In this document: positions 3,601 to 36,868 of the stretch, piece after piece | Layout of the letters: each line of letters starts with the position of its first letter | Numbering within the stretch: the stretch's first letter is position 1 | NCBI GenBank assembly: GCA_025353965.1 | Contig: JANXNS010000122.1 | Coordinates: forward strand, 1 to 43,529 | Direction of reading: 5' to 3' | Origin: Aquihabitans sp. | GTDB lineage: Bacteria; Actinomycetota; Acidimicrobiia; Acidimicrobiales; Iamiaceae | DNA: 43,529 bases | The notes under the pieces: model-generated | The model's input: the letters and a program-made list of their open reading frames with translations, nothing else | Database searches by the model: none | What the model was told of the DNA's origin: nothing | Position numbers and translations under genes: made by a program

Positions 3601-4205
3601 CTACGCGGCGGGCACGTACGACGGGAGGGCCGGGTATAGCGAGGCGAGACCCCGGTCCGAGTGGATGACCCGAATTCGTCCAGCTTCCTTATCCAGCCAG
3701 GCGGCAACGCAGGCCAACTCGTCGGCCATGGCCTTGGGCACGGGCTGGCCAGGCTCAGAATGATCGTCCCCCAGGGGCGCAACGAGGTGGTCCGGCGCCG
3801 CGGGATCCAGATCGAGCGGAAGCGCTAGGGGCGTAATGCCTTGGCGGGTGATGGTCCATGCCCGGACCAGGCGCCCGTGGTCCAGCTCGGCTCCGGATCG
3901 TTCGCCGAACTCCACGACTACCCGTCCGGCCCGGCGCAGCATGTCGAAGCGGCGCTGACGTCGGAGTGCTGACGTAAGCGCCGCCGCCCGATCGCGCATC
4001 TCCGCCGCCTCCTCGAACCGCTCGGCGGCCGCCAGGCTGTGCATCTTCTGTTCGAGGGGGCCCAACAGGAGTTGGGGCTCGTGCAGGAGCCCCCGGCGAA
4101 CCTTGGCGGCAATGCCGGCATAGTCCTCAGCGTTGGTCTGGCCCGCGCACGGACAGGTGGCCACACCGATCTGCGCCGCCGCGCAGGATCCTGGCCGCAA
4201 CGCCC
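3601..4205 (-). CDS. Out-of-frame C-terminal part of the exonuclease/UvrC-like protein
   Basis: This segment continues the product of the nuclease gene at 4127-5278 but in another frame. It begins with a cysteine-containing RPGSCAAAQIG...CPCAG segment, as in the region after the GIY-YIG domain of UvrC homologues. A UVR-like helical hairpin follows (LLGPLEQKMHSLAAAERFEE), and then about 110 residues typical of the C-terminus of actinobacterial DEDDh exonuclease/UvrC-like fusions. No good independent start or ribosome-binding site is visible, so I read it as the rest of a single gene. With one base skipped near 4203-4205 the whole protein would be about 558 residues (complement 3601-5278). The break may be a sequencing or assembly error or a real mutation. 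Confidence 0.75.
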
Positions 4206-5278
4206 GGCTGGAAGGTGGCGGTACAGCGTCGCAGCGGAAGGGCTGTCTCAATGGCCTCCGCCACTCGTTTGGCCGCCTGGTGCGAGGGAAGCGGACCGAG
4301 ATACAGGGCGCCGTCGTCTCGGATGGCCTTGACCACCGAGAGCCGGGGAAACGCCTCGTTGGTGAGCTTGAGGTACACGTAGCGGCGCCAGGTGGTGAGT
4401 TGGCGGTTGAACCGTGGTTCGAGCCGGTGTATGAGGCGCACTTCCAGCACCGCGGCCTCCAGCGGGCTGGGGCACACCACATGATCGATGCGCTCGGTCT
4501 CGCGGAGAAGCTGGCCGATCTTGCGGCGATCGTCGCTGGAAAAATAGGAGCGAACCCGCGAGCGCAGATTGGATGCTTTGCCCACGTACAAGGTGCGCCC
4601 GGTTGCGTCCCGGAACAGGTACACACCCGGGCTGCGGGGGAGTGAATCGGTGAGGCGGAGTTTGCCGGCCTGTGCGTGGCCGCCCATGGTGGGCAGTGTC
4701 AGGAGATCATCCAGGCCGCACACGCCCAAGCGGCCGGCCCGCTCCAACAACAGGTGGAGGAGATCCCCGGTGGCCAGGGCGTCGTCCAGCGCACGATGGC
4801 TGGGGCGGTGCTCGAGCCGGAAACGATCGGCCAAGGTGCCCAGCCGGCAATTGGGCACGTCGTCGCGAACGAGGCGCCGGGCCAGGCTCAAGGTGTCCAC
4901 CACCCGATTGGCCAGCTTGGGGCGGCCGGACCGAACCAAGGCGCCGTTGAGGTAGCCGAGGTCATAGCGAACGTTGTGGCCAACGATCACCGCGTCTCCC
5001 AAGAACTCCAAGAAGGTGGGCAGCACGGCATCGGGCGGGGGAGCGGGGGCGACCATGGCCTCGGTGATCCCGGTCAGCAGGGTGATCTGGCGGGGGATGG
5101 CGCACCCAGGGTTGACGAACGTGCAGAACGTACCCAGTTGCTGGCCGCCTTGGAGCTTGACGGCGCCGATTTCTGTGATCCCACCGTCTGCCGCGCTACC
5201 GCCGGTGGTTTCGAGGTCCACCACCACGAAGGTGACCTGGTGGAGCGGCGTACCGAGGTCGTCGAAGCTGGCCTGCAT
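4127..5278 (-). CDS. DEDDh exonuclease fused to UvrC-like GIY-YIG nuclease (frame broken before the C-terminus)
   Basis: Residues about 10-170 form a DnaQ-like DEDDh 3'-5' exonuclease: VVVDLETTG (first acidic pair), then VGHNVRYDLGYLNGAL, and a C-terminal HRALDDALATGDLL with the H and final D. A GIY-YIG domain follows, with SPGVYLFRDATGRTLYVGKASNLRSRVRSYF as in UvrC. Such fusions are known in actinobacteria (Rv2191 type) and are expected to act on damaged DNA. As written, the frame ends after 383 residues with a divergent tail, while homologous sequence continues in another frame (3601-4205). The start ATG 5278 gives the normal N-terminus of the exonuclease. It has a TACCAT -10 element 6 nt upstream and two LexA-like boxes just beyond, so SOS control is likely. 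Confidence 0.88.
   Translation of the reverse strand: MQASFDDLGTPLHQVTFVVVDLETTGGSAADGGITEIGAVKLQGGQQLGTFCTFVNPGCAIPRQITLLTGITEAMVAPAPPPDAVLPTFLEFLGDAVIVGHNVRYDLGYLNGALVRSGRPKLANRVVDTLSLARRLVRDDVPNCRLGTLADRFRLEHRPSHRALDDALATGDLLHLLLERAGRLGVCGLDDLLTLPTMGGHAQAGKLRLTDSLPRSPGVYLFRDATGRTLYVGKASNLRSRVRSYFSSDDRRKIGQLLRETERIDHVVCPSPLEAAVLEVRLIHRLEPRFNRQLTTWRRYVYLKLTNEAFPRLSVVKAIRDDGALYLGPLPSHQAAKRVAEAIETALPLRRCTATFQPGVAARILRGGADRCGHLSVRGPDQR
4203..4205 (-). other. Apparent +1 frame disruption in the exonuclease/UvrC-like gene
   Basis: On the plus strand a CCC run occupies 4203-4205. If it were CC, the minus-strand codons would read CAG CCG GCG TTG CGG CCA, joining the GIY-YIG frame to the UVR-domain frame without gap. 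Homology-like sequence on both sides switches frame within about 15 bases of this site, so one extra base here is the simplest explanation. Confidence 0.7.
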
Positions 5279-5284
5279 GCGTGG

Positions 5285-5290
5285 ATGGTA
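5285..5290 (-). promoter_or_regulatory. Putative leaderless -10 element (TACCAT) of the exonuclease gene
   Basis: TACCAT on the minus strand ends 6 nt before ATG 5278, with no Shine-Dalgarno between. The LexA-like boxes occupy the spacer and -35 positions directly upstream. Confidence 0.5.
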
Positions 5291-5319
5291 TCGAACGGCT
5301 GTTCTGTGAACAAGTGTTC
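5291..5319. promoter_or_regulatory. Tandem LexA (SOS) box-like operators
   Basis: Two GAAC-N4-GTTC palindromes lie side by side. The first, TCGAAC-GGCT-GTTCTG (5291-5306), differs from the actinobacterial box TCGAAC-N4-GTTCGA only in its last two bases. The second is GAAC-AAGT-GTTC (5308-5319). Their centres are 15 bp apart. They abut the -10 element of the leftward exonuclease/UvrC-like gene and would block RNA polymerase there. They also lie 41-69 bp upstream of the rightward zinc-ribbon gene. LexA itself is not in the window. Confidence 0.68.
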
Positions 5320-5347: not shown

Positions 5348-5353
5348 TAACAT
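5348..5353 (+). promoter_or_regulatory. Putative leaderless -10 element (TAACAT)
   Basis: TAACAT ends 6 nt before the GTG at 5360 of the zinc-ribbon gene. No Shine-Dalgarno is present. This supports the chosen start and gives a compact divergent promoter region of 81 bp. Confidence 0.42.
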
Positions 5354-5359
5354 CCAGGC

Positions 5360-5593
5360 GTGTCCAGCCCTGTTCGTTACCGGTGCACATCCTGCGGCAA
5401 CCTGACCCGCTTCGATGTCACGTCCACCCGCCGTACCAGCGCCTACCACCACTACACGGTGGGTGGTGAGCTCAGTATCGAAGATGAGCAGGTCCTTGAT
5501 GATCAGGTGGAGTCGGTGGAGTGCCGGTGGTGTGGGGCGGCTGGCCGAGTCGAGGCCCTCGAGGCCGAAACAGCGCCCGCGGTAGAGGGCTGA
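5360..5593 (+). CDS. Small zinc-ribbon protein
   Basis: This 77-residue protein has two CxxC pairs, C9/C12 (RCTSCGN) and C55/C58 (VECRWCGA), about 42 residues apart. That spacing suits a single zinc ribbon whose two knuckles are joined by a loop containing a TRRTSAYHHYTVGGEL segment. The C-terminal 15 residues are acidic. No catalytic residues are visible, so a nucleic-acid or protein-binding role is a guess from the fold only. It starts at GTG 5360, 6 nt after a TAACAT -10 element. It is divergent from the SOS-type nuclease gene and upstream of an NYN-domain nuclease gene, with which it probably forms an operon. Confidence 0.75.
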   Translation: MSSPVRYRCTSCGNLTRFDVTSTRRTSAYHHYTVGGELSIEDEQVLDDQVESVECRWCGAAGRVEALEAETAPAVEG

Positions 5594-36293: not shown

Positions 36294-36342
36294 ACTGACC
36301 TCGGGATCGAACAAAAGTTCGGGGTTCCCAGGATGAATGAAA

Positions 36343-36366
36343 TGGAGTAGTTTGGACCTCAATGGA
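36343..36366 (+). promoter_or_regulatory. Putative MraZ-binding direct repeats
   Basis: TGGA occurs at 36343, 36353 and 36363, exactly 10 bp apart. Known MraZ operators consist of three or four TGGG-type repeats with the same period. The repeats cover the -10 element and the mraZ start codon, ideal for autorepression of the dcw operon. The TGGA form differs by one base from the E. coli consensus. Confidence 0.65.
36348..36353 (+). promoter_or_regulatory. Putative leaderless -10 element (TAGTTT) of mraZ
   Basis: TAGTTT ends 8 nt before ATG 36362; no Shine-Dalgarno lies between. It sits inside the TGGA repeat array. It would drive the whole dcw cluster. Confidence 0.45.
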
Positions 36367-36868
36367 ACAGGGGCAAGAACGCGGGGTCGCTCTAGCGATC
36401 GAAGAGACGCCCACTGCGTCGCCCCTCACCTCGTTTGGCCACCCGGCGTTTCACGGCACCTACCGCCTCAAATTGGATGCGACCGGCCGGGTTTCGTTGC
36501 CTGCTTCGTTCAAAGGTGCCTTCAGCGCCACGGGATTCATTCGGCCCAATCGAAACTCGCACCTGATGCTCTGGACGCCGAGCGGGTTCAAGGCCGTCGC
36601 CGACGCGTTCGGCGGGAGCGGTTCTTCGGGTGTGGTCAATCCCCGCACTCGCAAGCGGTTGCACATGTCGACCACCGAGGTGTCGGTCGACAGGCAGAGC
36701 CGCTTCGTGATCCCCCCGGAGCTTCGGGTCAAGGTCGGGCTCGGCGAAGCCATCGTGTTGGCCGGGGCCATTGAGACCATCGAGATTTGGTCGGCGGATT
36801 CCTTCGTGGACGAAGAGGCCACCTTTGATGATGCGGACCTGTTCTTCGATGGGTTCGAAGGACTGTGA
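36362..36868 (+). CDS. mraZ: Transcriptional regulator MraZ
   Basis: MraZ is a DNA-binding protein with two AbrB-like halves that controls the division/cell-wall cluster. The 168-residue protein has the first half at FHGTYRLKLDATGRVSLPASF (about 31-51) and the second at TTEVSVDRQSRFVIPPELR (about 103-121), each with the family's D-x-x-x-R-x-x-x-P pattern. It is about 25-30 residues longer at the N-terminus than usual, because the only in-frame ATG is at 36362. This start has a TAGTTT -10 element 8 nt upstream. Its ATG is also part of the third TGGA repeat. It overlaps rsmH by 4 nt. Confidence 0.92.
   Translation: MEQGQERGVALAIEETPTASPLTSFGHPAFHGTYRLKLDATGRVSLPASFKGAFSATGFIRPNRNSHLMLWTPSGFKAVADAFGGSGSSGVVNPRTRKRLHMSTTEVSVDRQSRFVIPPELRVKVGLGEAIVLAGAIETIEIWSADSFVDEEATFDDADLFFDGFEGL

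Follow-up and report, generated by a model that had tools for sequence, protein, structure and literature searches.

The window, i.e., the whole stretch of 43,529 nucleotides analyzed from an Aquihabitans sp. contig, harbors a gene on the minus strand that codes for a fusion of a DEDDh exonuclease, a GIY-YIG domain, and a UVR motif. Two predicted LexA boxes are embedded in its promoter, and a small gene is oriented divergently on the other side of them. The features are the following:

3601..5278, minus strand: DEDDh exonuclease–GIY-YIG–UVR-motif fusion gene (NCBIfam NF005907), assigned by profile match and present as two overlapping ORFs
5285..5290, minus strand: −10 element TACCAT, read from the sequence, with a 17-bp spacer before it and 6 bp between it and the ATG
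5293..5304, minus strand: predicted LexA box 2, GAACAGCCGTTC on the gene strand, an exact match inside the promoter spacer
5308..5313, minus strand: −35 element TTGTTC, read from the sequence, overlapping box 1
5308..5319, minus strand: predicted LexA box 1, GAACACTTGTTC on the gene strand, an exact match whose right half is the −35 element
5360..5593, plus strand: divergent 77-aa CxxC/CxxC protein, from translation, with a leaderless-type −10 element TAACAT at 5348-5353

The reading frame of the fusion gene is broken once in the window's copy, between about 4190 and 4236. The copies of relatives are intact with about 550-615 aa, and full-length loci read through the point that corresponds to 4190-4236. 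The frameshift may be a draft error of the assembly, which consists of 264 contigs, or the mark of a recent pseudogene. The Aquihabitans orthologue contains the Pfam domains RNase_T, GIY-YIG, and UVR and reaches 554 bits with NF005907 (cut-off 454); the first of the gene's two ORFs in the window also scores over the cut-off. The DEDDh and GIY-YIG motif residues are invariant in 15 relatives; solved structures of related proteins are those of exonucleases of the PolC/DnaQ type and of GIY-YIG domains from UvrC. Judged by these domains, the enzyme is probably an auxiliary Cho-like incision nuclease with a fused 3′–5′ exonuclease, its activity being predicted by this relationship. To our knowledge, little is established about what DEDDh–GIY-YIG fusions do in the cell. 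The orthologue of Mycobacterium tuberculosis is presumably Rv2191. In one paper, Rv2191 is listed merely as a STRING neighbour.

Pattern matching in TATCGAACGGCTGTTCTGTGAACAAGTGTTCTTCC yields two exact GAAC-N4-GTTC boxes at 5293-5304 and 5308-5319, with a centre-to-centre distance of 15 bp. On the plus strand, they read GAACGGCTGTTC and GAACAAGTGTTC, respectively, both as exact matches, and the strand across the boxes is TATCGAACGGCTGTTCTGTGAACAAGTGTTC. On the gene strand, the order is GAACACTTGTTC-ACA-GAACAGCCGTTC-GA-TACCAT-CCACGC-ATG. The spacer between TTGTTC and TACCAT measures exactly 17 bp and is filled by box 2. Since the right half of box 1 is the −35 element and the spacer has this length, both boxes lie within the promoter and not merely upstream of the −10 element. 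The ATG of the gene is found at 5278, with its first base 7 bases past the −10 element. As the −10 element is placed just 6 bp from the ATG, the transcript is probably leaderless, as far as the promoter sequence can tell. The actinobacterial LexA box consensus, as found in M. tuberculosis and Streptomyces venezuelae, is TCGAAC-N4-GTTCGA. The earlier note had described two GAAC-N4-GTTC palindromes with 15 bp between their centres, just upstream of a TACCAT −10 element; both palindromes are recovered exactly, as is the −10 element (minus strand, 5290-5285). The box that the note counted as the first (5293-5304) indeed deviates from the consensus by exactly two bases. The boxes tabulated in PMC9380542 are compatible with this consensus. 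Box 1 has a low matrix score of 11.9, which is owed to its flanks.

The same genome encodes a canonical LexA, which scores 228 bits with NCBIfam lexA and contains a helix-turn-helix, a VAAG cleavage site, and the catalytic motifs GDSM and ATVKTF. A self-cleaving LexA and RecA are both recognizable from the sequence, with recA being partial as the edge of its contig (C36) cuts it. The lexA promoter contains two exact boxes and, in addition, degenerate ones, one of which, in our reading of this promoter, is 15 bp from an exact box; this 15-bp spacing is seen again at the lexA promoters of the family. One box, GAACATCTGTTC, is located upstream of recA, and a single box overlaps the start codon of imuA′, a DnaE2-accessory gene (NF058630). 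The operator at the nuclease gene is thus of the genome's own box type, and it resides within the −35/−10 region.

Further LexA-like boxes were noted in passing. DUF222-HNH endonuclease genes (L067 and L002; C157 and C4 in the own genome) carry them over the start codon. These genes are reminiscent of the 13E12-repeat genes, which belong to the M. tuberculosis SOS regulon. A gene that weakly matches SMODS/nucleotidyltransferase and is possibly a damage-linked CD-NTase (L073; own genome C203:746) has a high-scoring box 35 bp ahead of it, and a gene for an N6/N4 DNA methyltransferase (L009; own genome C32:4969) has one 70 bp ahead. In the window itself, a LexA-like box with a moderate matrix score of 16.9, GATCGAACAAAAGTTCGGGG, is found at 36309-36320. 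The ORF that follows it (36337-36774 or 36362-36868) looks MraZ-like by eye and is located ahead of an FtsI/SpoVD-type PBP gene (38282); the 36337 reading frame has no Pfam match. If conserved, this box could connect SOS with division.

Within genus g1 and the nearby g8, 11 of 13 orthologue promoters (window included) contain two exact boxes 15 bp apart, placed at −41 to −43 and −26 to −28. Box 1 is degenerate in the genus relatives L032 and L043, the latter of which has a degenerate box 2 as well. Among the g1/g8 promoters, the CTTGTTC core of box 1 is kept. Other genera mostly retain one box in the promoter region, and box 2 is the most widely kept of the two. Of 78 named orthologues, which are mostly from Acidimicrobiia and include Aquihabitans sp. 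G128, 70 are preceded by an exact box, and eight have none within 110 bp. On the same 78 loci, the controls give one match for the reversed pattern and none inside the gene. The box, the −35 element, and the −10 element keep their register: TTG is found 8-9 bp ahead of the box in 87 and TAnnnT 2-3 bp past it in 54 of 147 orthologue boxes, and the spacer is 17 bp long in 53 of 66 scored promoters.

At eight Acidimicrobiales loci (L146, L153, L156, L161, L162, L164, L165, and L173), the nuclease gene contains a LexA box in its first codons; one such sequence is ATGCCCGAACAGACGTTCG, which encodes M-P-E-Q-T-F. In several of these loci, this box is ~33-36 bp away from a promoter box.

In a phylum-wide sample, which includes deep families beyond Acidimicrobiia, an exact box was detected within 255 bp of 51 of 89 orthologues, whereas the reversed pattern matched at none, and some orthologues elsewhere in the phylum have boxes 15-16 bp apart. 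The class of genome G204 deviates from this pattern, with an exact LexA box upstream of just 1 of 81 orthologues. This class is probably Actinomycetes; its family f59 appears to be Mycobacteriaceae, and the class seems to include mycobacteria. Herein, 45 of the 81 orthologue promoters contain TGTCRGW-N9-TAnnnY, the RecA-NDp motif, at a shuffle rate of 0.1%, and 35 match neither motif strictly. In a subset of 51 sequences, a gap of 9 is the only one among gaps 4-15 that matches (31/51). The motif is found in none of the DEDDh–GIY-YIG promoters of the 78 named Acidimicrobiia-type loci. For mycobacteria, tTGTCRgtg-8nt-TannnT is the RecA-independent promoter consensus (PMC5656591), and PafBC acts via the RecA-NDp promoter (PMC6789036). 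The 45 orthologues thus exhibit the TGTCRG-type motif of the PafBC regulon at the exact spacing to TAnnnT.

The recA promoters served as a positive control. In the class of G204, 15 of 16 contain a LexA box and 15 of 16 the RecA-NDp motif; in Acidimicrobiia, all 14 contain a LexA box and 4 of 14 a RecA-NDp-like variant, which is also found upstream of the window genome's own recA. A changed LexA motif as the cause of box loss in the class of G204 was rejected: the lexA promoters of most box-less genomes keep GAAC-N4-GTTC/GTTT boxes, and the recA promoters keep theirs in the 15 of 16 cases mentioned. Hence, the loss at the nuclease gene is promoter-specific. Family f47 is an exception, as the lexA genes of its sampled genomes are without an exact GAAC-N4-GTTC box, and a different SOS logic is likely in this family. 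At the f47 loci L273, L274, L280, and L289, the nuclease gene apparently follows a DisA-like helix-hairpin-helix frame (by eye) and has an extra N-terminal stretch. In several genomes of the class of G204 (L269-L272, L244, and L250), the divergent neighbour likewise has a motif of the TTGTCGGTG type, oriented in reverse, which suggests paired PafBC promoters. The recA of G306 is apparently interrupted, as the match stops at residue 204 although the open frame has 741 aa. An intein would account for this, and the naming of the class and of f59 draws partly on this observation.

In a FastTree tree of 158 orthologues, the LexA and PafBC labels require one change; the PafBC-type sequences fall into one clade, and the adjoining clades have LexA boxes. 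With a midpoint root, which is not an inferred root, LexA control comes first. We consider it probable that this is an ancestral damage gene of Actinomycetota that was repressed by LexA and came under activation by PafBC in a single handover, basal to the probable Actinomycetes. The mycobacterial half, i.e., control by PafBC, may already stand in the published PafBC regulons of 2018/2021.

Short palindromes of this kind also arise by chance, and the counts of single boxes would suit boxes without function: GAAC-N4-GTTC occurs 57 times in the 3.18-Mb genome of the window, as compared with 53 for the reversed-pattern control, which amounts to no genome-wide enrichment. At such a near-chance rate, a lone box would prove nothing, and single-box genome counts were not counted as evidence. 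It is the tandem arrangement that chance fails to reproduce. Two exact boxes at most 30 bp apart are found at two promoters of the 3.18-Mb genome, those of lexA (C46) and of the DEDDh–GIY-YIG gene, with no reversed-pattern pair at this distance. Across 24 family genomes, 36 tandem pairs were located by their coordinates, 24 of them at lexA, 11 at the DEDDh–GIY-YIG gene, and one elsewhere, and the reversed pattern again gives none. The pair outside these two genes lies at C1:3688962-3689002 of G015. As the boxes occupy the same position in the orthologous promoters of relatives across the sampled class, chance is eliminated, and functionless palindromes retain practically no probability.

The boxes might instead serve another regulator with the same half-site, such as a paralogue of LexA or a repressor of the ArsR type, in which case the response would not be SOS. 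A weak second LexA-family match is indeed present in the genome (C184, E 7e-4); moreover, an ArsR binding motif is reported to be similar to the mycobacterial SOS box, and ArsR repressors have been speculated to occlude SOS boxes (PMC8151990). However, the identical box type precedes lexA, recA, and imuA′, the genome encodes the canonical self-cleaving LexA, and orthologues in the class of G204 have the site of a different damage regulator, which fits damage and not metal control, so that another regulator is very unlikely. From the layout of the sequence, the divergent CxxC gene (5360-5593) may share the boxes. That they are there chiefly for this gene, which starts about 40 bp from box 1 and has a visible counterpart in several relatives, is more improbable still: the register of the boxes is fixed to the nuclease promoter (−8/−9 and +2/+3), whereas the distance to the divergent start varies among relatives in the upstream sequences compared.

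Taken together, we are highly confident in reading the two boxes as LexA operators of an SOS nuclease gene. Across the phylum, LexA control looks like the ancestral state, which the probable Actinomycetes swapped for RecA-NDp. SOS control had been put forward in the earlier note, which proposed to look for the same boxes at lexA, recA, and dnaE2-type genes and at orthologues. It is supported on each count: GAAC-N4-GTTC, and not a different motif, is present at lexA (two exact boxes), recA (one), and imuA′ (over the start codon), and the boxes are conserved in close relatives, both being kept in 11 of the 13 g1/g8 promoters, and in 70 of 78 loci across the sampled Acidimicrobiia. LexA binding, repression, induction, and the enzyme activity are those parts of the model that we infer. 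In this model, two LexA dimers with centres 15 bp apart would occupy the −35 element within box 1 as well as the spacer as far as the −10 element and would, thus, block RNA polymerase from the promoter. Upon DNA damage, the RecA filament would trigger self-cleavage of LexA, and the nuclease would then be produced along with recA, lexA, and imuA′. By analogy with Cho, the enzyme, with its GIY-YIG domain and a UVR motif of the UvrB-binding type, would probably provide extra incision capacity together with UvrB, and the fused exonuclease could trim the nicked strand. In one group, control of the gene would have been exchanged from LexA to the activator PafBC. Because LexA boxes occur class-wide and the site of another damage regulator is found in the probable Actinomycetes, damage induction looks central to the role of the enzyme.

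The enzyme is tied to the damage response in two independent ways, by the conserved LexA operators and by the site of a second damage regulator that takes their place. With one change on the tree, the exchange is a clear case of de-repression giving way to activation while the stimulus is kept. If true, selection would keep damage-inducibility and not any one regulator, and the SOS membership of the gene would have been concealed by the model species. In the open-access literature, nothing was found on LexA control of GIY-YIG genes in actinobacteria or on LexA in Acidimicrobi-. The S. venezuelae LexA paper has no match for exonuclease, UvrC, or GIY-YIG, and the sampled genomes of the Streptomyces-like family f54 (a presumed grouping) contain no orthologue. 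The handover from LexA to PafBC may be why the LexA regulons of model actinobacteria omit the gene.

The system resembles several known ones. With the LexA/SOS regulon of Actinomycetota, it shares the operator type, the set of lexA, recA, and imuA′, and a canonical LexA, but RecA-NDp replaces the LexA box at the orthologue in the class of G204, to which the mycobacteria seem to belong. With the PafBC/RecA-NDp regulon of mycobacteria, it has in common the motif at exact spacing before the orthologues of the class of G204; however, PafBC is an activator and LexA a repressor, and the motif is found in 0 of the 78 promoters of named loci. NCBIfam PRK07883, "DEDD exonuclease domain-containing protein", describes the protein itself, as the equivalog NF005907 scores over its cut-off and both the DEDDh and GIY-YIG domains are present with their catalytic residues, although the frame is broken in the window's genome and the family model is silent on function and regulation. 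E. coli Cho (YdjQ) is reportedly an SOS-induced UvrC-like GIY-YIG nuclease, a description said to go back to Moolenaar and colleagues in 2002. Both proteins are UvrC-like GIY-YIG proteins without the C-terminal nuclease half of UvrC, and both are LexA-controlled, as is predicted here for the fusion. In contrast to the stand-alone GIY-YIG homologue Cho, the window's family, PRK07883, has a DEDDh exonuclease fused at its N terminus, contains a UVR motif, and is preceded by another type of LexA box.
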